DNA of 64,000 nt from contig NZ_CP135918.1 of the NCBI RefSeq assembly GCF_032393985.1, positions 6,697,724-6,761,723 of the forward strand, in the 5' to 3' direction. Every line of letters starts with the position of its first letter. The first letter of the stretch is position 1. The DNA is from Fischerella sp. JS2 (GTDB lineage: Bacteria > Cyanobacteriota > Cyanobacteriia > Cyanobacteriales > Nostocaceae). Under the pieces are notes generated by a model. That model searched no databases. It was given only the letters and a program-made list of their open reading frames with translations, and was not told where the DNA came from. This document shows, in pieces, positions 18,269 to 51,748 of the stretch. The position numbers were made by a program, and so were the translations under genes.

Positions 18269-18404
18269 TAGATTGAGAGCTTGCATCTAGCCCAGGCGAT
18301 TAGAAATCGCCTGGTGCAATATCTCATGTAGACCTCTTGCCCAAATAGATCCTATAAAATTATTTTGAAGCACGAGTGTTAATTTGATCTGCAATTTGCA
18401 AAAA

Positions 18405-18638
18405 ATGAGTACATATCAAATGAAAATTAAAGGTATCAAACGCGGTCAAACTATTGAACTCTTAGAACAAATTAATGATATTCCTGATGGTACAGAAATT
18501 CTCATTGAATTTGTAATTTCTTCAAAGCAAATAACTGAAGATTCACAAACTTTAAGTGATGAAGAAAGGCTCTCCAAACTCAACCTATTATTTGATGTTT
18601 GGCAAGACCAACCTGAACTAGTAGAAATATTTGTGTAG
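18405..18638 (+). CDS. Small antitoxin-like protein, apparently C-terminally shortened
   Basis: This protein of about 77 residues begins MSTYQMKIKGIKRGQTIELL; an ATG at 18420 or upstream at 18384 is also possible. The start IKGIKRGQTIELLEQINDIPDGTEI looks like the beta-hairpin DNA-binding part of a common cyanobacterial antitoxin type. The frame ends abruptly after WQDQPELVEIFV, where relatives, as I remember them, continue with about 15-20 more residues. A perfect GTGTAGT/ACTACAC hairpin spans the stop. No toxin gene follows. It is probably an orphan or decaying antitoxin. Confidence 0.5.
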   Translation: MSTYQMKIKGIKRGQTIELLEQINDIPDGTEILIEFVISSKQITEDSQTLSDEERLSKLNLLFDVWQDQPELVEIFV

Positions 18639-18687
18639 TTGTACTACACGATAAAATGAGAAAATGTATTGAGGTATCGACTCAGAT

Positions 18688-18909
18688 ATGGGTACTTTGC
18701 CAGAGATCGAAGCTGCTATCAAACAACTACCAGAAAATGATATTCGTCAACTAGCTGCTTGGCTGGAAGAATATTTGGAACAAATATGGGATCAGCAAAT
18801 CGAAACTGACTGGGCATCAGGAAAATTAGATCGACTAATTGCGAAAGCTGAAGCTGATATTGCAGCAAACCAAGTGCAAGATATAGATGAAATCTTTAAC
18901 AACTCCTGA
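18688..18909 (+). CDS. Antitoxin-like small protein of a RelE-type pair
   Basis: This acidic 73-residue helical protein (EIEAAIKQLPENDIRQLAAWLEEYL) ends ADIAANQVQDIDEIFNNS. It overlaps the next gene by 23 bp, a typical toxin-antitoxin arrangement. The conserved IKQLPENDIRQLAAWLEEY pattern is common in cyanobacterial antitoxin-like genes that precede RelE-like toxins. No DNA-binding domain is evident by eye. The spacing from the previous antitoxin-like gene is 49 bp. Confidence 0.65.
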   Translation: MGTLPEIEAAIKQLPENDIRQLAAWLEEYLEQIWDQQIETDWASGKLDRLIAKAEADIAANQVQDIDEIFNNS

Positions 18910-19144
18910 TTTTTGGGAAGCTTATGCCCGACTACCGGAGGATGTGAGGGAGCAAGCAACAAAAGCATATCAACTTTGGCAAGAAAATCAATCTCACATG
19001 TCTTTGCACTTTAAAAAAGTTGGCAAAAATCTTTGGTCTGTCCGTGTCACTGGTGGATATCGTGCTTTGGCTTTAAAAAAGGGAGATGATTATTACTGGT
19101 TTTGGTTAGGTACTCATGATGAGTATGACGCATTATTAAATTAA
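18887..19144 (+). CDS. RelE-like putative toxin
   Basis: This 85-residue protein has the compact RelE/HigB fold pattern: N-terminal helices (DFWEAYARLPEDVREQATKAYQLW), then HFKKVGKNLWSVRVTGGYRALALKKGDDYYWFWLGTHDEYD. The Arg residues in the VRVTGGYRAL strand and the His/Glu in GTHDEYD are at places used by ribosome-dependent mRNA interferases. The gene starts inside the antitoxin gene, so it is translationally coupled. It appears intact. Confidence 0.7.
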   Translation: MKSLTTPDFWEAYARLPEDVREQATKAYQLWQENQSHMSLHFKKVGKNLWSVRVTGGYRALALKKGDDYYWFWLGTHDEYDALLN

Positions 19145-20477: not shown

Positions 20478-21617
20478 ATGATTATTAACTTAGAAATTAT
20501 ATTCCTAACGCTGATGCTAGGCTCAGTGGTATTTTACATATCATGTGCCTTTTGTACACATCAGTTTTTTGCATCTACCCAAAAGCAGATTCCCAATAAC
20601 CAAGATCTACCAGTCTCAATTATGGTATCGGTGAGTGGATTAGATGAGGGAGCATGGGAAAATTGGTCATCGCTGTGTAAGCAAAACTATCCGAATTATG
20701 AAGTGCTGTTTGGAGTGACAGATCCGAAAGACTCTGCTGTTCCCTTACTAAAAAAGCTGGTTGCAACTTTCCCTGACACAGTAAGACTGTTTATTGGTTT
20801 AGAATCACGAGGAGTCAACTATAAAGATAGCAACCTGAGTTATTTATTGGAAGAGTCTCAACATGAAGTAATCATTTTTGCTGATGGTGATATCCGAGTA
20901 AATCCTGACTACATCCGCACTGTTGTAACTCCTTTGCTGGATGGGAAAGTAGATGTTGTCACCAGTGCCTATATCGGGCACAATCCCCAATATCTGGGTG
21001 CTGCTGTTGCTTCCTTTGGTCGTTGTGTTGATTTTATTCCTAGTTTGTTAATAGCTCGTAGACTTGACGATGGTCTACGCTTTACTATAGGAGTAACTAT
21101 AGCTACTCGTAAATCTACGTTAGCTGATTTTGGTGGGTTGCACCTCAACCGCATTGGTTCAGACTATAATCTCGGCAAAAGAGCAGCTCAAGCAGGTTAT
21201 AAAGTAGAACTATCATCCTATATTCTAGAGTGGGATACTGGTCGAGAAAACTTGAAGCAGGTGTTTACGCGAGAGTTACGCTGGGCGCGGACTATTCGTT
21301 ACAATCGCGGCGCACAGTACTATGCTATGGTGTTCTGCTACGGCACTGTTTACTGTATTCCCCTGTTATTACTGTCGGGGTTTGCTGGTTGGGCAGTAGC
21401 TGTGTGCTTTACCACGATTATTATTCGTTATGTGCAAGTACTAGTAAGTATTTTGAGTATGAACTGTCCCAAACTCTTACGTTGGCTTTGGATAATCCCG
21501 TTACGAGACTCACTCAGTTTTATTGTTTGGGTTATGGGTGCGTTTGGACAACGTATTTATTGGCGTGGAAGATATCTGCGGGTAGAAGGTGATGGTGTCA
21601 TCTCTCCGTGGAAGTAA
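20478..21617 (+). CDS. hpnI: HpnI-type glycosyltransferase (ceramide-glucosyltransferase-like, hopanoid)
   Basis: This 379-residue membrane glycosyltransferase of the GT21 type has an N-terminal helix (residues 5-27), a cytosolic GT-A domain and three C-terminal hydrophobic segments. Ceramide-glucosyltransferase motifs are visible: SIMVSVSGLDEGAWENWSSL, FADGDIRVNPDYIR (D1/D2 region), GSDYNLGKRAAQAGY (D3) and the acceptor motif RELRWARTIR ((Q/R)xxRW). In hopanoid producers HpnI adds N-acetylglucosamine to bacteriohopanetetrol. The cluster context (hpnP-like and hpnB-like genes within 7 kb) supports this over a general GT21 enzyme. Confidence 0.75.
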   Translation: MIINLEIIFLTLMLGSVVFYISCAFCTHQFFASTQKQIPNNQDLPVSIMVSVSGLDEGAWENWSSLCKQNYPNYEVLFGVTDPKDSAVPLLKKLVATFPDTVRLFIGLESRGVNYKDSNLSYLLEESQHEVIIFADGDIRVNPDYIRTVVTPLLDGKVDVVTSAYIGHNPQYLGAAVASFGRCVDFIPSLLIARRLDDGLRFTIGVTIATRKSTLADFGGLHLNRIGSDYNLGKRAAQAGYKVELSSYILEWDTGRENLKQVFTRELRWARTIRYNRGAQYYAMVFCYGTVYCIPLLLLSGFAGWAVAVCFTTIIIRYVQVLVSILSMNCPKLLRWLWIIPLRDSLSFIVWVMGAFGQRIYWRGRYLRVEGDGVISPWK

Positions 21618-21861
21618 TGAAAGGTTGGTTTTGAGTACAGCATTTCGTTAATTCCTATTTCTATACAAATGCTATTCTGCCTTGAAGTTGTCCTCTAGGT
21701 GTCTATACGCTTACGTTTATGTCTGATCTAATTTCAGATGGTGGCTAAAGTTATGTTTTAGAAATCGACCACCGATAAACACAGATGCACACAGATGGAT
21801 ACAGATGGATTATCCATTTGTGACTAATTTTTGATGATTCATGACTATTAATGATTAGATA

Positions 21862-22854
21862 TTATGCTGCTTCAAATTCACCCAAAATTTGATTGTAAAC
21901 TTTGAGCAAGTAATGAGGTTGAAATAAGGTAATTACATAACCTATAAAAACTAAAACTACTGAAGTAATAACAATGGGAATTGCCAAAGGAAAGTAAAGT
22001 ATGTGACTTGGTTGATGAGTAAACATTTTACTTATCCTTTCAGATAAAATCCGTAACTTACCTTGCAAGCGGGCCATAGAGTCACGGTATTTCTGTTGAG
22101 ATTTGGCTAGCAAACGGTTTTGCCAGTAATAATCGTGACCAATCAATAAGAAACGCCAGAAAAAGTGAGATAGCCCTGATGGTGGGGCGTGGGTTGCTCT
22201 GGCTTGTGGTTGTCTCCAAATTGTATAGCCCAAGGAACGTAATGTGTGAGCATGAATTACACAGTTACCTCGGTAAAGAACTAGTTCGGTGGGAATGGGG
22301 TATTGTAGGAGAAATTCGCGGCGAAAAGCGACATTATTGAGAAAGTATTGGGAAGTTCGTTTGAGAGTTTTCTGCTTTGAATATTGGGGAAAAATATAAG
22401 TCAAAGCCATAGCTGTGCCGTAGATTCCCCTAGCTTGTGTTGTTGTTTCTCCAGCAACAATTTGGATCTCATCGCTTTGAGTGAAAGGGATGAGGAGATT
22501 TCTTAACCAGTTAGTTTCATAGATGCAGTCAGAGTCACAATAGACTACTATCTCCCCTGTGACTAGATTAGCTCCCAGCATTTTTGCTTGGTAATATCCA
22601 CTCCCTGATGGTGCTTGATAAACTTTAATCCAGGAATATTTTTGACGTAGCTGTTCTAGCTTCTGGGGAGGAACATCACCGCTATCTATTAATAACACTT
22701 CATTAGCTTGAGTAGGTGAGAGGTCTTGATTTACTAATGAATTTAGAGACTCAGATAGTTTGTTGATGTCAGCATTAGCCAAATTTTCTGTTTCTAGGAC
22801 AATAGAAAAACTTGGTAATCTTTCTTGAGGTTGAAATACTCTTGTCTGTCCCAT
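21862..22854 (-). CDS. Family 2 glycosyltransferase with C-terminal membrane helices
   Basis: This 330-residue GT-A enzyme has the nucleotide-sugar site EVVYCDSDCIYETNW-like block (GEIVVYCDSDCIYE, about residue 105), a donor loop NNVAFRRE and a C-terminal hydrophobic pair (LYFPLAIPIVITSVVLVFIG). The substrate is not evident. It sits leftward between the hpnI-like and hpnP-like genes, so it may glycosylate a hopanoid or an exopolysaccharide, but this is only context. It shows no sign of truncation. Confidence 0.75.
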   Translation of the reverse strand: MGQTRVFQPQERLPSFSIVLETENLANADINKLSESLNSLVNQDLSPTQANEVLLIDSGDVPPQKLEQLRQKYSWIKVYQAPSGSGYYQAKMLGANLVTGEIVVYCDSDCIYETNWLRNLLIPFTQSDEIQIVAGETTTQARGIYGTAMALTYIFPQYSKQKTLKRTSQYFLNNVAFRREFLLQYPIPTELVLYRGNCVIHAHTLRSLGYTIWRQPQARATHAPPSGLSHFFWRFLLIGHDYYWQNRLLAKSQQKYRDSMARLQGKLRILSERISKMFTHQPSHILYFPLAIPIVITSVVLVFIGYVITLFQPHYLLKVYNQILGEFEAA

Positions 22855-23140
22855 AGTTTAATTTTTTATTTAGTTGTGTTTATTTATCTACATGTTTGTG
22901 CCTAGATGAATTGGTGATCACAATCGAGCATTCCCCAATCAAAATTTTGCACAGACGATGGAATTAGTACCCTTTTTTTGGCGTTGCATAAAATGGAGAT
23001 GAGGAATGAACCGCCAAGATGCCAAGGACGCTAAGAATTAATTTTGTCTAAAAATATAAAATAAAATCATCCCACAAATATGCAACGCTCTTTTTTTATT
23101 ATAAAAAACAAGCCGTGCTTGATCTAATGAATTAGAGTAG

Positions 23141-23265
23141 TGGTCTGTTTCATTAATTGAGATGGGTTATATAATTTAATGAATTACCCTTTCGTCCTCT
23201 TCTCTTGGCGTACTTGGCGTCTTTGCGGTTCGTTTTTTACCTTTCAGAACTAATGAAACAGACCA
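23141..23265. mobile_element. Candidate MITE with 15-bp perfect terminal inverted repeats
   Basis: TGGTCTGTTTCATTA (23141-23155) is perfectly inverted at 23251-23265. The flanks GTAG (23137-23140) and GTAG (23266-23269) match and may be a target duplication. The 125-bp interior is non-coding and contains a TTGGCGTCTTTGCGGTTCG stretch related to the GAACCGC(C)AAG dispersed repeat. The whole 22855-23378 gap carries no gene. Confidence 0.65.
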
Positions 23266-23301
23266 GTAGTAGTTCACCAAATTGATTTTGATAGGTTGGC
23301 C

Positions 23302-23332
23302 AGATCCCAACTTTTTTAAAAAGTCAGGGATC
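23302..23332. repeat. AGATCCC...GGGATCT palindromic repeat, copy 1
   Basis: This is an imperfect hairpin with AGATCCC and GGGATCT ends around a T/A-rich loop containing AAAAAGTC. Close relatives lie at 29155-29187 and 62153-62185. Here and at 29187 the bases after GATCT also match partially (C-rich, then TCGCAA). Confidence 0.8.
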
Positions 23333-23378
23333 TAACCCTTCGCAAAGAGTCAAAACTTATCTAGTCGAGTCGTTATAT

Positions 23379-25031
23379 TTAGGTATGAACTGCATTACGT
23401 ATCTTTTGGGAATAAAACGAAGCCGATTCTTCATTTTTGGCGCATTCTTGAGCAAATTTAATGAGATGATGACCCACAAGTCCGACGTGAATCAAGTTCT
23501 CAATATTACCTGCTTTTAATTGCGGTAGTGCCATTTTCCAAAATGTCTGACGATAGTTACCAAATAACCCTACCCGGAGCAAAATATTTACCATATAAGT
23601 TAAACCTTTACGGAGATTAGCTCCTGAAGTGCGAGCGGGGCTATTGGGAACTTTGATGCGATTAGGGTAAGTGTGTTCTACATTGTGGGCAAATCGCTGA
23701 TATAAAAATTCTGGTTCATAGGCTGTTGTAATACAGCGACGCCACATTTCTACTACCTGTTCATAGGGCATTAAAAACTTGATATTCGACTCACGATTTT
23801 CCTCAAATACTAGTCGCCCTTCTTGTTCTAGCCTACGCCACAAAGGAGTTTTTGGTAATGCATGTAATAGGTTAATTGTCAACATAGGAATTTGAGACAG
23901 ACGAATAAATTCGAGAATTCGGTCTGCGGTTTCTGGTGTGTCTGTATCAAAGCCAATGATGATTCCTGATACAACTTCCATACCATAGCTATTTAAAACT
24001 TTTACTGCTTCCAAAATTGGCATACTTAGATTGTGAGTTTTAGAAATAGCGTGGAGGGCTTCTGGTTCTGGGGTTTCAATGCCACAGAAGACTGTACAAA
24101 AATAGGCTTCGCGCATCATTTCCAAAAGTTTGGGACTTTGAGCTAAATTCAATGTGGCTTCACAAGCAAACTGGATGGGATAGCCATTGTGCTTTTGCCA
24201 GTCAATTAGGTATGGCAGCAAATTCATGATGGCACGACGATCGCCTACAAAGTTATCATCTACAAAATAGACTGCTCCTGGATTACCACGTTCGAGCATA
24301 GTATTGAGTTCGGCGATCACTTGCTCTGGTGTTTTCAGGCGGGGGTTGCGTCCATAAAGTTCGGGAATATCACAAAACTCACAGCGATAGGGACAACCAC
24401 TGGAAAACTGAATATTAGCGAGGAAATATTGATTGAGATCCAGCAAGTGATAAGCTGGGATGGGAAACTCACTAAGGGGTAAGCGTTCTTTAGTTTCAAA
24501 GCGAATTTGCTGTTGGGGAGGTTCTGTGTGGTGATCTAAATACTCGATTATGCGATCGCTTGCATCTCCCAACTCACCCAAATGCAAAATATCAAACTCA
24601 GGATAATATTCTGGGCAACCAGAGACTGAAGGACCACCTAAAATAGTAATTTTGCCTTCTGCATGGGCAAGTCGATTAATTTCATTAATCTGTGGTCGCT
24701 GGATGTGCATCCCACTGACAATTACCGCATCAGCCCATTGGTAATCTGTCCTTGTTGCTGTTCGCACGTTTTCATCTATAAACCGGACTTCCCACTTTTG
24801 GGGTAAATAAGAAGCAACTAGTAAAATACCTTGTGGAGGCATAAAAGCTTGGACTTTTCTCCCCATAAGCGGGTAAGCATGATGAAAAGTGCCAAAAGAG
24901 CGACTGTACTTGGGAAAGATGCAGAGAATGCGCCGATGGTTAAGCGGTAGATAGGGAGTTGTTTTAATAGAAGCAGTTTCCGAATTTACCACAGGAATTT
25001 GATCTGCCAAAGACTTGAGATTCACACTCAT
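23379..25031 (-). CDS. hpnP: B12-binding radical SAM protein, probable hopanoid C-2 methylase HpnP
   Basis: This protein of about 550 residues starts MSVNLKSLADQIP (ATG 25031; 25046 also possible). It has an N-terminal cobalamin-binding domain (ILCIFPKYSRSFGTFHHAYP, then SGMHIQRPQINE and LGGPSVSGCPEYYPE), a radical SAM core with the cluster motif CPYRCEFC (about residue 200) and YFVDDNFVGDRRA, and a DUF4070-like C-terminus. The FGTFHHAYPL...AFMPPQGILL block and total length match what I recall of HpnP, which methylates hopanoids at C-2 using SAM-derived methylcobalamin. Related DUF4070 radical SAM proteins exist, so the exact substrate is an inference strengthened by the hpnI/hpnB neighbours. 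Confidence 0.72.
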   Translation of the reverse strand: MSVNLKSLADQIPVVNSETASIKTTPYLPLNHRRILCIFPKYSRSFGTFHHAYPLMGRKVQAFMPPQGILLVASYLPQKWEVRFIDENVRTATRTDYQWADAVIVSGMHIQRPQINEINRLAHAEGKITILGGPSVSGCPEYYPEFDILHLGELGDASDRIIEYLDHHTEPPQQQIRFETKERLPLSEFPIPAYHLLDLNQYFLANIQFSSGCPYRCEFCDIPELYGRNPRLKTPEQVIAELNTMLERGNPGAVYFVDDNFVGDRRAIMNLLPYLIDWQKHNGYPIQFACEATLNLAQSPKLLEMMREAYFCTVFCGIETPEPEALHAISKTHNLSMPILEAVKVLNSYGMEVVSGIIIGFDTDTPETADRILEFIRLSQIPMLTINLLHALPKTPLWRRLEQEGRLVFEENRESNIKFLMPYEQVVEMWRRCITTAYEPEFLYQRFAHNVEHTYPNRIKVPNSPARTSGANLRKGLTYMVNILLRVGLFGNYRQTFWKMALPQLKAGNIENLIHVGLVGHHLIKFAQECAKNEESASFYSQKIRNAVHT

Positions 25032-25068
25032 TCCGTTTCTCCCCACAAAACCGTTAACAGTTATCAGT

Positions 25069-25097
25069 TAGAGACGCGATGTTCCTCGCGTCTGTAC
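25069..25097. repeat. 30-bp hairpin element, copy B
   Basis: GAGACGCGA-TGTTCC-TCGCGTCTGTAC stem-loop inside TTATCAGTTA...AGTTATCAG repeats, between the divergent hpnP-like and ABC exporter genes. It matches copies A, C and D. Confidence 0.8.
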
Positions 25098-25291
25098 AGT
25101 TATCAGATGACTGGCAAAACAGCTTGTGTGACCCCCGCCATAAACCTAATAACTGTTCACTGATTTAACTAATCTATTAGCAGAATTAGTGGTGATTGCA
25201 ACTACCTGGTGTGATAACTTTATAAGTTTTTACTGTAAAAGATAAAATTTCCCCAAGGGGCACCAACTAAAGTGGTTTGTAAACAAGTATC

Positions 25292-26926
25292 ATGCATTTG
25301 ATTTCTTTTCTGCTGCGTTCTTCTTGGAAAATGATCGCGATCGCGATCACAACTGGCTTTCTCAGCGGTGGTAGCAGTGCTGCTTTAATTGCCCTTATCA
25401 GCAATGTTGCTACTAATAACCCCGGTTCTTCCTTAAAAATTATAATTTGGGGTTTTGTAGGATTGGCATTAGTTGCGCTGATCACCAGCATTATTTCCCA
25501 AGTGATGCTGATTCGCTTATCTCAAAATGCAGTCTTGCAACTACGGATGCGTTTGAGTTGTCAGATTCTCTCCTCCGAGTTGAGTCATTTAGAACAACTA
25601 GGAAATCCCCGCCTGTTAGCAACCCTTACCGAAGATATTCAAGCAGTTGCTGATGGGGTTTATCAGATGCCTTTTTTATTTATTAATTTAGCGATCGTCT
25701 TAGGCTGTGTTGTTTACATCACTTGGTTATCTTGGTTAGTCTTGCTTATGGTTGCAGGACTATCTGTAGTAGCAATTGCTAGCTGTCAGTGGTTTTTGAA
25801 CAAAGGTAAGAAATTACTCACCTTAGCTCGTGAAGATCAAGATGTACTGTTTGACCAATTCCGTACTATTACTGAAGGTGTCAAAGAACTTAAGCTCCAC
25901 TATAACCGACGTCAAGTCTTTTTAGACAAAAAACTGCAATCAACTGCTACTAAATACCGTCGTCACAACATTAATGGTTTTACCTTTTTTGCCATAACCA
26001 CCAGTTGGGGTCAACTCATCTTCTTTTTCACGATGGGTTTTGTCATCTTTGCACTGCCTAATTTGCTAGCCATCAATCCGCAAACTCTTTCTAGCTATAT
26101 CTTGACCTTCACTTACTTGATGATGCCAATGAATAATATCATCAGTAAACTTCCGCTTTTGAGTAAAGCTAGCATTGCCTTACAAAAAATAGAATCACTG
26201 GGTCTATCTCTAACTCATCGAGCTGAAGTATCAACAGTTCCACCTGCTGCTAAGACTGTTTGGCATCGTTTACAACTCAAGGATATTATTCACGCTTATC
26301 ATACAGCAGAAGAAGACAAAAGTTTTATTTTGGGTCCTATCAACCTGACACTTTATCCACAAGAGATTGTATTTATAGTCGGGGGGAATGGTAGCGGTAA
26401 ATCTACTTTAGCTAAATTGCTTACTGGACTTTATATTCCAGAAGCGGGAGAAATTAGGCTAGATCAAGATTTAATTACTGAACAAAATCGAGAATGGTAT
26501 CGTCAACATTTTTCTGTAGTGTTTTCTGACTTTTATTTATTTGATGAACTTTTAGGATTAGAAAATTCTAGTCTATATCATAAAGTCCAAGAGTACCTCA
26601 AACTTTTACAGTTAGAGCATAAAGTGAAAGTTAAAAATGGTAGACTTTCTACTACTGCTCTTTCTCAAGGACAACGTAAAAGACTAGCATTACTGACTGT
26701 ATACCTAGAAGATCGATCCATTTATTTATTTGATGAATGGGCAGCAGATCAAGACCCAGCATTCAAGGAAATATTTTACAAAGAACTACTGCCAAAACTC
26801 AGGGATACAGGTAAAACAATATTGGTCATCACCCACGATGATCGCTATTTTCATCTAGCAGATAGAATTGTTAAACTTGAATATGGAAAAATTGAATTTG
26901 ACACGCATAATTTTATTCAGAACTGA
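25292..26926 (+). CDS. Cyclic-peptide-type ABC exporter (SyrD/PvdE/YojI-like)
   Basis: This 544-residue fused exporter has six membrane segments (about residues 15-290) and an ATPase domain with Walker A GGNGSGKST (about residue 366), signature LSQGQRKRLALL and Walker B IYLFDEWAADQDP. The DEWAADQDP phrase and short helical linker are characteristic of the cyclic peptide transporter subfamily, which in other bacteria exports siderophores, lipopeptides or microcin-like peptides. No peptide synthetase or precursor gene is adjacent. It could instead handle a lipid from the hopanoid region; that is speculation. Confidence 0.82.
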   Translation: MHLISFLLRSSWKMIAIAITTGFLSGGSSAALIALISNVATNNPGSSLKIIIWGFVGLALVALITSIISQVMLIRLSQNAVLQLRMRLSCQILSSELSHLEQLGNPRLLATLTEDIQAVADGVYQMPFLFINLAIVLGCVVYITWLSWLVLLMVAGLSVVAIASCQWFLNKGKKLLTLAREDQDVLFDQFRTITEGVKELKLHYNRRQVFLDKKLQSTATKYRRHNINGFTFFAITTSWGQLIFFFTMGFVIFALPNLLAINPQTLSSYILTFTYLMMPMNNIISKLPLLSKASIALQKIESLGLSLTHRAEVSTVPPAAKTVWHRLQLKDIIHAYHTAEEDKSFILGPINLTLYPQEIVFIVGGNGSGKSTLAKLLTGLYIPEAGEIRLDQDLITEQNREWYRQHFSVVFSDFYLFDELLGLENSSLYHKVQEYLKLLQLEHKVKVKNGRLSTTALSQGQRKRLALLTVYLEDRSIYLFDEWAADQDPAFKEIFYKELLPKLRDTGKTILVITHDDRYFHLADRIVKLEYGKIEFDTHNFIQN

Positions 26927-26995
26927 GAGATAACTAAATTGAACTTTCTTAGAATACAAATAATCCCAGATACATACCGATAAATTATCCGTGTA

Positions 26996-27028
26996 CCCTA
27001 CGGGAAGCCGCCCTTAGGGGCGTCTACA
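26996..27028. repeat. CCCTACGGGAAGCC...GCGTCTAC dispersed repeat
   Basis: This short imperfect palindrome has the CCTACGGGAAGCC start and GGGGCGTCTACA end, upstream of the hpnB-like gene. Relatives lie at 55166-55193 and 63251-63282 and, more weakly, at 1141-1191. Confidence 0.7.
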
Positions 27029-27071
27029 TCGCTGTGCATCAGTGTTCGTTATTTAAAAATAATCTTAATTT

Positions 27072-28280
27072 ATGGAAAAAATAGAACTAGCTATAGTAAT
27101 TGTATCTTTATTAATTTGGATAGGATTACTAACTCTGTGGGGACAATTTTGGCAGACAGACCAACAATTAGAAGTCACAGAAACTCACTTAGAAAAATTA
27201 CCATCAGTTTGTGCAGTAATTCCAGCACGTAATGAAGCAGATTTGTTGCCAAAAACATTGCGATCGCTCCTTCGCCAAAACTACCCAGGTTTGTTTACCA
27301 TCTTCTTGGTAGATGATCACAGCACAGACGGAACTGCTAAAGTTGCTCAACAAACTGCCCAAGCTTTAAATAAAGACCAACAATTGCACGTTATTACTGC
27401 CCAAGCATTACCTCCTGGTTGGAGTGGCAAACTCTGGGCAATGGAACAAGGTATTAACAAAGCTACAGCAACACTCGAATCAGATTACTTGCTGCTTACC
27501 GATGCAGATATTGAACATGATCCAACAAACCTATATCAACTTGTTGCCAAGGCAGAACAGGAAAATTTAGATCTTGCTTCCCTCATGGTACGACTTAGAT
27601 GTGAAAACATTTGGGAAAAACTTTTAATTCCAGCTTTTGTGTTTTTCTTTCAAAAACTCTACCCCTTTCGCTGGGTAAATGATCCCCAAAAATCAACAGC
27701 AGCAGCTGCGGGAGGTTGTATCCTAATTCGCACAGCAGCACTCCAGCGCATCGGTGGTTTGCAAGTGATTCGGCAAGCATTAATTGACGATTGTGCCCTT
27801 GCTCATGCTATCAAATCAGTTAAATCCTCTTCTCTGCCATCCCCCCACTCCCCCAAAATCTGGCTAGGACTCAGTTCTTCAACTCACAGCCTCCGTCCCT
27901 ATCCCTCCCTGTCTCCAATTTGGGGCATGGTTGCGAGGACTGCTTTTACTCAAATGAACTACTCGCCGTTGCTATTAATTGGAACCCTGGTTGGGATGAT
28001 TTTGGTTTATATAGTTCCACCACTGGGTTTGATCGTCGGTGCTTTGACAGGAAATTGGTTAGTCGCACTCACAGGTTTATCAGCATGGTTGCTAATGAGT
28101 TTGGCTTACTTCCCGATGATTCGCTTTTATCAATGTCCTTTGTGGTTAGCTTTCTGTTTGCCAATCATCGCCTTTCTCTATACTTTGATGACTCTCGACT
28201 CTGCATTACGTTATTGGCAAGGACGAGGCGGTGCTTGGAAAGGAAGGGTTTATAGGGCAGAGGGCAGAAGGTTTAACTGA
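27072..28280 (+). CDS. hpnB: HpnB-type hopene-associated glycosyltransferase
   Basis: This 402-residue membrane glycosyltransferase has an N-terminal helix, a GT2 catalytic domain (SVCAVIPARNEADLLPKTL, LVDDHSTDGTA, LLTDADIEHDP, IDDCALAHAIK) and three to four C-terminal helices ending RYWQGRGGAWKGRVYR. The PPGWSGKLWAMEQG segment and the KIWLGLSSSTHSLRPY block are what I associate with HpnB. A proline/serine stretch (VKSSSLPSPHSP, about residues 249-260) interrupts the normal link between AIK and KIWLGL. At DNA level it is C-rich CCCCCCACTCCCCC, like the intergenic repeats, so it is probably a repeat insertion kept in frame. Confidence 0.8.
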   Translation: MEKIELAIVIVSLLIWIGLLTLWGQFWQTDQQLEVTETHLEKLPSVCAVIPARNEADLLPKTLRSLLRQNYPGLFTIFLVDDHSTDGTAKVAQQTAQALNKDQQLHVITAQALPPGWSGKLWAMEQGINKATATLESDYLLLTDADIEHDPTNLYQLVAKAEQENLDLASLMVRLRCENIWEKLLIPAFVFFFQKLYPFRWVNDPQKSTAAAAGGCILIRTAALQRIGGLQVIRQALIDDCALAHAIKSVKSSSLPSPHSPKIWLGLSSSTHSLRPYPSLSPIWGMVARTAFTQMNYSPLLLIGTLVGMILVYIVPPLGLIVGALTGNWLVALTGLSAWLLMSLAYFPMIRFYQCPLWLAFCLPIIAFLYTLMTLDSALRYWQGRGGAWKGRVYRAEGRRFN

Positions 28281-28608: not shown

Positions 28609-28920
28609 ATGAAACGCCAAATTTCTTTAATCATCGCTTTTGTACTCTCATTCTTGATGATGTTTAGCCCTGTTGCAATGGCTGATGAGGTTAAAGGTCA
28701 AACTTCAGTGACTACATCAGAACTAACTAAATCAGAAGTAGTTAAAGTCACGCCAGTAGAAAAGAATGAAGCTGATGCAGCTGTAGCACAGCCAAAGGCT
28801 AGTGACTTTTTAGACAAAGGGGAATTGAATCCGATGAAATTAGATGGATGCATGGTTCCGTGTCCAGGTGGATTTTCAGGATATATGCGGGGAGACATGT
28901 GCATACCATGTGGAGGCTGA
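28609..28920 (+). CDS. Small secreted Cys-rich protein, unknown function
   Basis: This 103-residue protein has a clear signal peptide (MKRQISLIIAFVLSFLMM, cleavage near AMA-DE), a Thr/Val/Lys/Glu-rich linker (about residues 26-65) and a compact C-terminal motif CMVPCPGGFSGYMRGDMC followed by IPCGG. The four Cys (CxxxC...CxxC) could bind a metal or form disulfides. The family is not recognised. A truncated second copy of its signal peptide follows 50 bp downstream, so the locus was once duplicated. Confidence 0.65.
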   Translation: MKRQISLIIAFVLSFLMMFSPVAMADEVKGQTSVTTSELTKSEVVKVTPVEKNEADAAVAQPKASDFLDKGELNPMKLDGCMVPCPGGFSGYMRGDMCIPCGG

Positions 28921-47344: not shown

Positions 47345-50300
47345 CTACTCGCCTTGCAACTTCTGCAACTCCTCAGGTGTAAACGGGTTTTTACCAGCCT
47401 TTAAATCTTTTACCCAACTTTGCCGTTTTACTTTCGCCTGGGGATCATCAATTGATTTGATGTATGCTTCAAAATCTTCAATAGCGCCCTTGGTGTCGCC
47501 AGTTAATGCCCTTGCCAAACCGCGACTATCACGGATATTACCATCATCAGGTACGAGGGACACAGCTTTTTCACAGGCAAACATCACATCTTTAGCGTAA
47601 CCACGTAAACTACCTTCCCAACACAAACTATTCCAAGAAATAGCCAAGGTTTGTTTGGATGGTTGTAATTTTTCAATTTCTGTGTGTGTTGCCACAGCTT
47701 TTGTGAAATCACCCTGTTTTAAAGACTCTTGTGCTTTAGGAATTAAATTTTGTTTATTAATTAAACCTTCTGCTGTTAGCTGTTTGGCAACGAATTCAGC
47801 GTTATCTTGCACACCTTCAGTATATGGATCAAGATCGATTTTAGGGTCGAGTTTCTGTGCTTGTTTCAAGCTTTTGAAAGTACCAGAAAAATCACCTTGG
47901 ATTGCCTGTTCAATACCTTGAGTCACAAAAGCAGGGGCTGCTTTGACTTCGGGATTAATATCTAACTTAGAGTCCCACTTTTTCGCTTTTTGAAACTTAG
48001 CAACTGCTTCTTCATATTTACCCTCTGTTGCTAATTTCTCACCTTGGGCAACTAAAGTAGGGGCTGCTGCTAAAAACAAAGATTGATTTTGACAAACTTT
48101 GAGTTTTTCTAAAGTCTCTGGATGAGAAATGAAATATTGTTGTAACTGACTGCAACCCCGCGAGAGGACATCATCTATATTTAAACGCCAAAGTTTGACT
48201 GTTTTATCAGCACTTCCAGAAGCGAGGACTTTACCATCACTGCTAAATACAAGGCTGGTGACAAAAGAAGTATGTCCTGTGAGGGTGCGAATTTCTTTGC
48301 CAGTGGCGACGTTCCAAAGTTTGATGGTATTGTCATTGCTACCGGAAGCTACAAATTTGCCATCTGGACTAAACACGACACTTTTGACAAGATTGCTATG
48401 TCCAGTGAGAGTTTGAATAACTTTTCCACTAGCGATATCCCAGAGTTTGATTGTTTTATCAGAACTACCAGCAGCAAGTATTTTACCATCCGGGCTAAAT
48501 GCAATGCTTGTCACCGAACTGCCATAGGTGAGGGTTTTGATGATTTTACCAGTGGCAATATCCCAAAGTTTGATGGTTTTGTCATCACTACCAGAAGCCA
48601 GTATTTTGCCATCTGGGCTGAATTTGAGAGTTGCGATCGCACCACTGTGATCAGATAAACTGAAAATTTCCTTGCTGGTGGCAATATCCCAGAGTTTGAT
48701 CCTGTTGTAACTACCAGAAGCAAGTATTTTGCCATCCGGGCTAAATCCAATACTACTAATATAAGAATCATACCCAGTTAGAGTTGTGATGGTTTTGCCA
48801 GTAGTCACATCCCAGAGTTTAATGGTTTTGTCACCACTACCAGAAGCAATTGTTTTGCCATCTGGACTAAATGCAACACTTATAACACCAGCGCTATCTT
48901 CTAAAAGGCTATTAGTAGCTTTGCCAGTATTGGCATCCCAGAGTTTGATCCAGAGTTTGATCCTGTTGTCAGAAATACTATAAGCAAGTATTTTGCCATC
49001 TGGACTAAATCCGATGCTACTGATCCCAGATTCATGCTCATTTAAGGTTTTAATATTTTGACTATTGGTGAAGTCCCAAATTTTAATCTTGTAGTCGTAA
49101 CCAGTAGAAGCAATCAGATTACCATCCGGGCTAAATGCTACCTTTGTGACACTACTATCATGCCCATTTATGGTCTGGGTCGCTTTACCAGTAGTGACAT
49201 CCCAGAGTTTGATTGTTTTGTCATAACTACCAGAAACAATAGTATTGCTATCAGGGCTAAATGCTACAGAATTGATTGAACTGCTGTTTCCTGTGAAAGT
49301 TTTGGCTTTACCAGTGGTAACATCCCAAAGTTTGATTGTCTTGTCATCGCTACCAGAGGCAATCATATTGCCATCTGGACTAAATGCTACACTAGTGACC
49401 CTATCGACATGCCCAGTCAGAGTTTTGATCGCTTTACCAGTAGTGACATCCCAAAGTTTGATTGTATCGTCCGAACTACCGGAAGCAAGGATTTTGCCAT
49501 CGGGGCTGAATACAATGCTATTTACCAAATCAGTATGTTCGGAGAGGTTTTTGATGACTTTACCTGTAGCGAGATCCCAAAGTTGGATAATGTTGTTAAG
49601 ACTGCGGGAAGCAAGGATTTTGCCATCAGGACTAAATATTAGTTCATAAATCGAATTATTTTGACTGGATAGGGTTTTGAAGACTTTACCAGTAGTAACA
49701 TCCCAAAGTTTGATGGTTTTGTCATAACCGCCAGAAGCAATTATTTTGCCATCGGGGCTAAACGCAATGGTTTTTTCACTTTCATTACCACTCAGAGTTT
49801 TGATAACTTGACCTGTAGTGAGATCCCAAAGTTTGATTGTATTATCACTGCTAAGAACTATTGTTTTGCCATCCGGGCTAAATGCAAAAGTGGTACTGGT
49901 AATAGCGCTAGAATCTCCAAAGGAATTTTTCTGTTGAATCTGCGCCAAAATATCTTGAATGCTGAGGATGGGACTAAAAGCAGGATAATCAACAATAGAT
50001 TGCTTTTGATTCACCAAACTTTTGAGGCTTTGTCCCGCTTCCATCGCCATTAATAAACCATCAATTTGATTCCATTTAAATCTTTCGATGGCGTTGTTAC
50101 CAAGTCTTTCGGCTTCGATCGCACTAAAAGCCCTTTGTCTAGCTTGTTCTGTGAATGTTGCTACCACCACAGCCCCCAGCAGCGACAATCCTAAAATACC
50201 AGCGCCAATGTAAGTTTGTCGCCGGGCTTTGTGTCGCGCTGACTCTAAAATTTGCCTTGCCTGTTTCTCTGCTTCTAAGGCAGTTTGCATTTTGCGCTTA

Positions 50301-51748
50301 TCTAATTCTTGGCTAGCAGCTAAATATTGATAATCTAAATCGCTTAAACTTTTGCCAAATGCCCAGGCTTGGGCATCCTGTAACGCTTGCCCACGTAATA
50401 ACCAAGATTCATCTTTATTGCTGCGAACCCATGCTTCTAATGCTTCGGCGTAGGGACGTAAATCTGCTAACACCTTTATCACCCAGTTTTGGTTAAAAAC
50501 AGCTTCGTAAATCCGGTTGTATACTTTTAACTTTCCTTCCCGTTCTACCACCAACCCCGTCAGCCGTAATTCCATATGTTCGGGGCTATTATCACATTCT
50601 AATTCTCCGTACTGCAAAATTTCCTGGTATAATCCTAACCATCGACACGCTTTTTGCTCATTCCTGAGGATGCGATCGCGAATTGTCCGCAAATGTTCTG
50701 GTTCGTCGTGAAATTCCCAATTTTCAATTATTCGCGATTTGACGACTGCTTCTACCCACTCTTTCGTATAGACTTCTCTGCTAGTGAGGGGGAGAATATC
50801 TCCTCCGAACTCTCTCCCATCAAGAAAGTCAAAAAATTCCCCCCCTTCTTTCGTAGGGAAGGGGGTAGGTCTATTTTCTCCCAACTTCTCAATATAAGAC
50901 CCCTGCCCGCAAGCGGGCAGGGGAGTGACATCGCCCCTCTCCTTAGTAAGGAGAGGGGTTGGGGTGAGGTTAATCACCAATTGGCACAACTTCTGTGTCA
51001 AAAACGGCTGTCCACCAGTCCAAGCTAAAATCTCTGCCATCACAGCCTGGGGGTTAGTCACTTTTCCTACCAATCCTTGCGTCAGTGAATCAACTTCTTC
51101 TAACTTAAATCCTTGCAATTCAATTGCCCTTCCAATATTAAACGGTGTGCGCTTTTTATCTGTGATCAAATCACTAGGAGTTGCCACACCGATTAACACA
51201 AACGTTAAACGATTGTAAACTGGCTGATCCGCACGCTGGTTGTAAAAGTTGCGTATGACTGCAAAAAAATCTTCAATCGGAAAACTCAAACTCAGCACAC
51301 TATCGATTTCATCAACAAAAATCACTATTTGTTGAGATATTTCAACCAGCAAAATTTCTTCAATAAACTTGCTGAATCTTTGCACTGGCGACAGCAACTC
51401 ATGCTCATTCCACCAGCTTTCTAAATCAAAATTGTCATATAAATTTAAACTACCCACCAAGCTATCAATTACCCCTGCATACCATTGTTGAGGGGTAATA
51501 TCCCAAGTGCCAATTGCTGTAATATCAATCGCTGCACAAGCAATTCCCTGTTGTTGCAACCTCTGCATTGTTCTTACCCGCAGGCTAGATTTGCCCATCT
51601 GGCGTGAGTTGAGGACATAACAGAACTCTCCTGCTATCAGTGCTGTATATAAATCCTCGTCTGCCTGCCGTGTTACATAGGTGGGAGAATTAGCTGGTAA
51701 ACTCCCCCCTACTTGGTATTGGTAGGTTAGGTTTTGCTGTGCGTTCAT
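47345..51748 (-). CDS. AAA-like ATPase / 14x WD40 / TPR signalling protein
   Basis: This 1467-residue protein has an AAA-like ATPase domain (about 1-260) with P-loop SRQMGKSS and Walker [11 protein letters not shown], and a winged-helix-like region to about 460. A coiled coil and one membrane helix ([19 protein letters not shown], about 525) follow, then 14 WD40 repeats (about 615-1210), many almost identical ([20 protein letters not shown]), then TPR-like helices to the end. Such NTPase-WD40 proteins are frequent in Nostocales, are likened to NLR-type receptors, and their roles are unproven. Residues 260-328 are a palindromic-repeat insertion, and WD repeat 8 carries a 12-bp duplication (IKLWIKLWD). 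Confidence 0.85.
50765..50971 (-). repeat. Palindromic repeats inserted in frame in the WD40 protein gene
   Basis: About 207 bp contain two perfect 11-bp hairpins: 50900-50910 with 50913-50923 (CCCCTGCCCGC) and 50934-50944 with 50948-50958 (CCCCTCTCCTT). They also contain a GGGGTTGGGGTGAGG edge matching the intergenic repeats at 10332 and 47092. The region is translated as [20 protein letters not shown] and onward, Pro/Gly-rich and unlike the flanking ATPase domain. Confidence 0.75.

Follow-up and report, generated by a model that had tools for sequence, protein, structure and literature searches.

2-Methylhopanes serve as a record of ancient cyanobacterial activity, and the finishing of hopanoids and their delivery to the outer membrane in cyanobacteria are unsettled. 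Hoshino et al. reported that proteins resembling the hopanoid methylase HpnP are common in cyanobacteria and were formerly mistaken for it (PMC10697835). In Alphaproteobacteria, according to the available parts of PMC12583986, the transporter HpnN is found in all predicted hopanoid-polyol-making members studied, hpnP usually lies apart from other hopanoid genes, and the presence of hpnP is no guarantee of a detectable product. For the cyanobacterial pan-genome, a co-occurrence study describes a hopanoid module of HpnA, HpnB, HpnF, HpnH and a phosphorylase, and the passages available name no ABC transporter (PMC5862535). Hopanoids have been reported, in the accessible part of PMC3883690, from the outer membrane of Nostoc punctiforme akinetes, and an export route is therefore needed. 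Here we describe a five-gene locus at positions 20478–28280 of a 64,000-nucleotide stretch of Fischerella sp. JS2 DNA (NZ_CP135918.1, 6,697,724 to 6,761,723; hereafter the window), from a genome consisting of a single contig of 7.02 Mb. The locus is probably a hopanoid tailoring-and-export cluster, and we infer from phylogeny and gene neighbourhood that its ATP-binding cassette (ABC) exporter is likely to be a hopanoid flippase.

The ABC gene (25292..26926, + strand) encodes a half-transporter with one membrane and one ATPase domain. Columns that we take to be the Walker A motif (GGNGSGKST) and an LSQGQ-type signature are conserved in a 31-row alignment. Full-length relatives occur in many of 388 genomes sampled from the class, including genomes without HpnP. 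One hundred ABC loci were taken from the matches listed, roughly by rank with skips, part of them before and part after the search for squalene-hopene cyclase (SHC). A quick tree of 114 sequences, comprising the window protein, 13 named loci chosen for HpnP and these 100 loci, divided into clade A (86 sequences, with the window protein) and clade B (28), with a Shimodaira–Hasegawa-like approximate likelihood ratio (SH-aLRT) support of 99; among the 100 loci alone, 72 fell in clade A and 28 in clade B. Four later loci (L219–L222), one beside HpnP (L220) and three without a labelled hopanoid gene, were kept out of the tree and the counts.

Clade A, and not clade B, is tied to hopanoid genes. Neighbours were labelled by BLAST against named families, the squalene synthase label resting on Pfam SQS_PSY. 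HpnP, HpnI, HpnJ, HpnK, HpnH, squalene synthase, HpnB and SHC were counted as established hopanoid genes; a gene that we presume to be HpnA-like was excluded from the link statistics, and ABC loci that showed no link and had flanks of less than 5 kb on either side were treated as unknown. Among loci with full flanks, 31 of the 56 in clade A, and none of the 24 in clade B, had an established hopanoid gene within 9 kb of the ABC gene. Counting five further linked clade-A loci with short flanks gives 36/61, and adding the HpnI-like and family 2 glycosyltransferase (GT2) types of the window to the established genes gives 39/56 as against 0/24. Fisher tests gave 5e-7 for the established genes and 1e-9 with the two window types included, and as both ignore relatedness the spread across families weighs more. 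The link was present in 10 of 12 families, through different hopanoid genes, and 30 of the 72 clade-A loci were linked via a gene other than HpnP. In one genome (G060) the presumed HpnA-like gene, HpnH, squalene synthase, HpnJ, HpnK, HpnI and the ABC gene follow one another on one strand, the ABC gene being last of the seven, and in another (G439) SHC lies immediately before the ABC gene in the same orientation. At nine Nostocaceae loci a curated HpnI adjoins the ABC gene, and the flanking sequence was read in eight of them. A count independent of labels gave nine gene families, besides the ABC gene itself, recurring in at least four of the first 40 ABC loci, and seven of the nine were hopanoid genes or the window-type GT2. 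In 6 of these 40 loci the ABC gene also had as neighbour a member of an unlabelled family of 123-amino-acid proteins (U4; L092:8559-8930).

The distribution of SHC follows the same division. Matches to SHC at E ≤ 0.001 occurred in 71 of the 72 clade-A genomes, in 10 of 21 genomes with clade B only, and in 187 of the 388 genomes of the class sample (179 over the cut-off). The sole clade-A genome without a match (G597) is 87% complete and has its ABC gene beside HpnP; one of the positives (G579) is a partial match (5.8e-52) adjoining a contig end. HpnN (TIGR03480) exceeded its cut-off of 751.85 bits in none of 271 cyanobacterial genomes, scoring 66.2 bits at best and, in the window genome, 32 bits at best. 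Elsewhere in the window genome SHC (950.5 bits) and HpnH (551.6 bits) are encoded, so that hopanoid synthesis and side-chain extension are to be expected.

The ABC gene is divergent to the gene at 23379..25031 (− strand), whose start lies 260 bp away. The open reading frame (ORF) of the latter begins with ATG at 25031, and a longer version begins at GTG 25046. Its product contains, in order, a B12-binding, a radical S-adenosylmethionine (SAM) and a DUF4070 domain (133.7 bits for the last, against a cut-off of 22), and carries CxxxCxxC at residues 213–220. It is one of three DUF4070 proteins in the window genome, the other two, at L001:427-2013 and L002:1435-3015, being HpnP-like. In a 33-row tree a branch with 100/100 support separated the window protein, 24 cyanobacterial sequences and a Methylobacterium bullatum protein from seven HpnP-like proteins, namely the two from the window genome and five plasmid-borne ones. 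The tree was midpoint-rooted and left out the verified Rhodopseudomonas palustris sequence, so this is a split and not a rooted clade. Because it falls on the HpnP side of this branch, the radical-SAM protein is HpnP by phylogeny, which adds a member to a known family. An earlier note on the window had proposed this identity, naming placement outside the HpnP clade as refuting it, and the phylogeny upholds the proposal. In rows selected by the same tree, 53 alignment columns are invariant among the 26 HpnP sequences, and none of the seven HpnP-like ones has the HpnP residue at any of them.

The window HpnP shares 55.7% identity with the Methylobacterium bullatum protein in an alignment covering 98% of its length, and the other plasmid matches fall below 37%; the similarity threshold of about 55% given in PMC12583986 refers to R. 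palustris, whereas the value here is against M. bullatum. The same source, in the parts available, reports that the genus Methylobacterium has hpnP and makes 2-methyl bacteriohopanepolyols. Sequences 70–100% identical to the window HpnP were found in 27 of 386 genomes of the phylum (itself included), the next matches listed reaching at most 41%. The SHC sample included twenty-two of these 27 genomes, every one of them SHC-positive. Solved structures yielded just two weak radical-SAM matches. The closest named HpnP, from Fischerella muscicola PCC 7414, is 96% identical, and HpnP, GT2, the ABC gene and HpnB have the same arrangement there; that contig stops past GT2, leaving the position of the HpnI-like gene out of view.

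The neighbourhood of HpnP in relatives was surveyed in the best 80 of 139 confirmed stretches, chiefly from Nostoc and other heterocystous genera. The ABC gene was the commonest neighbour, upstream and divergent, lying within 9 kb at 36 of the 80 loci, which come from heterocystous-type genera and one other filamentous cyanobacterium. Other recurrent neighbours were curated HpnI (25 loci), HpnJ (18) and HpnK (7), a radical-SAM family with DUF3463 that we take to be HpnH (8), a squalene-synthase-like family (6) and a phosphonate cassette. As the same gene families recur jointly in other cyanobacteria, their grouping in the window goes beyond chance.

Three glycosyltransferase genes complete the locus. 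The one at 27072..28280 (+ strand), 145 bp after the ABC gene and on the same strand, is HpnB (TIGR03469, 590.7 bits against a cut-off of 379.25), whose function is described as not established in the available parts of PMC12583986. The HpnI-like gene at 20478..21617 (+ strand) scored about 265 bits (264.9–265.3) with TIGR03472, below the cut-off of 310, and in a quick tree its product fell in a distinct clade of 15 rows (SH-aLRT 99), sister to and separate from 39 curated-type HpnI sequences (SH-aLRT 90). No HpnJ exceeded its cut-off in the window genome (best 133.6 against 577.6 bits). With HpnI and HpnJ both below their cut-offs, the known cyclitol-ether route is not indicated, and we rejected it as a candidate for this genome. 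The GT2 gene (21862..22854, − strand) lies downstream of hpnP on the same strand, as it does directly after HpnP at two other loci (L071 and L081); its product gave generic glycosyltransferase matches only (Pfam Glycos_transf_2, 54 bits). An orthologue of at least 56% identity was found in 22 of 26 other genomes searched, most of which were picked because GT2 is not beside their ABC gene. GT2 lies elsewhere in these genomes, and co-occurrence thus holds better than adjacency. Near the clade-A ABC gene, window-type HpnI was found at 12, GT2 at 13 and an HpnB-like gene (within 9 kb) at 9 of the 72 clade-A loci. The five genes announced in the earlier note are all open at their positions, and its description of a hopanoid region agrees with HpnB being over its cut-off and with SHC and HpnH in the genome. 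Of the flanking enzymes that it called HpnI-like and HpnB-like, the latter is HpnB and the former is not HpnI proper. The GT2 and the cyclic-peptide-type ABC exporter, which it regarded as extra, are present and do not appear incidental, as relatives of the ABC gene, and less strictly of GT2, recur beside hopanoid genes.

Several observations weigh against the ABC protein being a flippase dedicated to hopanoids. It scores 495.5 bits with the cyclic peptide exporter family TIGR01194, over the cut-off of 286.2. No established hopanoid gene lies within 9 kb at 25 of the 56 full-flank clade-A loci; conversely, 25 of the 80 HpnP loci are without the ABC gene despite long flanks (19 more being too short to tell), as are, within view, 18 of the 32 Nostoc loci, 14 having it. 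Among the 187 SHC-positive genomes 116 have no clade-A gene among the typed loci, a count for which ABC matches were fetched in part and in which several genomes show background ABC scores alone; the clade-A ABC protein therefore cannot be the sole transporter. GT2 is often distant from the ABC gene, and the HpnI family is weakly tied to it (49 of 72 clade-A genomes against 65 of the 116 other SHC-positive ones), so that an exporter simply tracking the HpnI family was also set aside as a weak candidate. It is conceivable that an ordinary HpnP stands here among loosely clustered lipid genes, next to an exporter of a peptide or siderophore whose nearness is inherited gene order. The TIGR01194 score and the unlinked clade-A loci speak for this, and relatedness within the Nostocaceae may explain part of the adjacency. 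Inherited order fits poorly, however, with a link that is found in 10 of 12 families and involves different hopanoid genes, with contiguous same-strand runs that include SHC or extend from the HpnA-like gene to HpnI, with the unlinked sister clade B, and with SHC in all but one of the clade-A genomes. We consider such an exporter unlikely.

The protein may alternatively belong to the hopanoid pathway and move something else, for instance the lipid-linked sugar that the glycosyltransferases would use as donor, or some other glycolipid. Its repeated position beside HpnI, window-type HpnI and GT2 would suit this role. The window genome has a second exporter, of clade B, at C1:1905683-1907299 (L110:9147-10830). 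This copy is flanked on both sides by weak HpnI-family glycosyltransferases (C1:1902868 and C1:1907476), with no labelled hopanoid gene nearby, and is perhaps a paralogous glycolipid export module; pairing with glycosyltransferases may then be a trait of the whole family. Several families have SHC, squalene synthase and HpnH as neighbours, not HpnI (f26 loci), and this counts against such a role, which appears quite improbable. Among solved structures the nearest chains belong to ABCB-type and MsbA exporters, which suits a lipid substrate without singling a lipid out. A model of the protein of moderate quality (pLDDT 73.1, pTM 0.70) had MsbA as its best Foldseek match; the fold is that of a generic exporter and the superposition is poor, which weakens the flippase assignment. 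A third possibility, an HpnP-like radical-SAM protein with a terpenoid other than hopanoids as its substrate, draws on the past confusion of such proteins with HpnP and on the three DUF4070 proteins in this genome. As the window protein lies on the HpnP side of the 100/100 split and the other two opposite, and as all seven HpnP-like rows differ at the 53 HpnP-fixed columns, we regard it as very improbable. A hopanoid flippase encoded beside a genuine HpnP remains our preferred explanation.

In this preferred scheme SHC would make hopanoids and HpnH extend them, both from elsewhere in the genome, and HpnP would methylate ring A at C-2. The window-type HpnI, GT2 and HpnB would assemble a sugar head group on the side chain or attach one to it. 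The ABC exporter would then flip the finished hopanoid, often glycosylated and either methylated or unmethylated, across the plasma membrane and towards the outer membrane, the task of HpnN in proteobacteria; substrate, direction and sugar chemistry are all predictions. A conserved, hopanoid-linked ABC exporter is what this analysis adds, and it offers a testable answer to the problem of hopanoid transport in cyanobacteria, the more directly so since a specific ABC gene can be addressed in genetically tractable Nostoc. No report of a hopanoid ABC exporter was found in open-access titles, abstracts and passages, subscription literature lying mostly outside the search.

A different set of head-group genes accompanies HpnP in some relatives. 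A fusion of phosphoenolpyruvate (PEP) mutase and nucleotidyltransferase, over the PEP mutase cut-off, was present at 16 of the 80 HpnP loci, phosphonopyruvate decarboxylase at 13, a 2-aminoethylphosphonate (AEP) aminotransferase family at 13 (representatives over cut-off) and a CDP-alcohol phosphotransferase at 24. Several Nostocaceae loci (L210:1-19901, L204, L206, L211 and L013) have the AEP pathway beside HpnP and other hopanoid genes, as a cassette of PEP mutase fusion, decarboxylase, aminotransferase, nucleotidyltransferase, CDP-alcohol phosphotransferase and a 2-oxoglutarate (2-OG) oxygenase-like gene. The fusion occurs in 17 of 145 genomes of the family. Labelled hopanoid genes were found in the fetched stretch at 11 of the 12 places where it is at least 76% identical, in genomes whose relatedness limits the weight of the count, and at none of five places with 52–55% identity; one more match is a fragment (G278). 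The exception among the 12 (L207) carries the cassette at the end of a contig, and three of the linked loci (L203, L208 and L209) have no HpnP in view. The window genome gave no match to the phosphonate route at E ≤ 1e-60, and the route was rejected for it.

The association of HpnP clusters with AEP genes in these relatives is a hint of phosphonate-capped hopanoids, and diacylglycerol could be the acceptor instead. Should the cassette act on hopanoids, there would be a new intact biomarker lipid to look for. No report of hopanoid phosphonates was found in open-access titles, abstracts and passages, with subscription literature again mostly beyond the search. One might go further and picture a modular cyanobacterial hopanoid locus, in which HpnP and a dedicated ABC flippase that replaces HpnN form a fixed pair and the head-group cassettes are exchangeable: glycosyltransferases here or, in Nostocaceae relatives, AEP synthesis and a CDP-alcohol phosphotransferase capping (methyl)hopanoids with a carbon–phosphorus head group. 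We put this forward tentatively, as a possible but rather doubtful generalization.

The 260-bp divergent region between hpnP and the ABC gene (25032..25291) showed no conserved regulatory motif in a 17-sequence alignment, and no cobalamin or other riboswitch, nor any other Rfam family, matched between 18500 and 29000 at E ≤ 0.1. Promoter-like sites were fewer than in shuffled sequences (12 against 22.4) and terminator-like sites numbered 11 against 6.4; neither was used as evidence. After HpnB, positions 28609-28920 encode a protein of 103 amino acids whose N-terminus looks like a signal and whose tail is rich in Cys and Gly; it has no family match, and an 81% identical copy occupies the same place in Fischerella muscicola. 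Elsewhere in the window, two adjoining small ORFs of 84 and 85 amino acids (18384-19144) resemble a type II toxin–antitoxin pair by eye only, and 47345-51748 encodes a 1467-amino-acid protein with many WD40 repeats.

Compared with described systems, the window HpnP shares domain order, clade and co-occurrence with SHC with the HpnP whose reference is R. palustris TIE-1 B3QHD1 (PMC10697835). It adjoins hopanoid and export genes, whereas that study reports no synteny of HpnP and SHC. From the HpnI–HpnK–HpnJ route the window retains an HpnI-family enzyme, but one that is below the cut-off and in another clade, with no HpnJ over the cut-off; true HpnI, HpnJ and HpnK lie near HpnP in relatives. The cassette of those relatives has the same gene set as a cluster described earlier, together with hpnL, as phosphonolipid genes in a lichen Nostoc (CDP-alcohol transferase, 2-OG oxygenase, nucleoside triphosphate transferase, pepM, ppd and AEPT; PMC5987646, legend to Fig. 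7). In the parts of that paper available the cassette is read as phosphonolipid synthesis, and the stem "hopan" is absent from the main text; here the cassette accompanies hopanoid genes. The ABC protein exceeds the cut-off of the TIGR01194 cyclic peptide exporters and has the same domain plan, but its neighbours are hopanoid genes. With the lipid A flippase MsbA it shares the half-transporter form and, by prediction, lipid flipping, at approximately 20% identity. With HpnN, a resistance-nodulation-division (RND) protein, it would share the proposed role of bringing hopanoids to the outer membrane, although as an ABC exporter it is a transporter of unrelated type.

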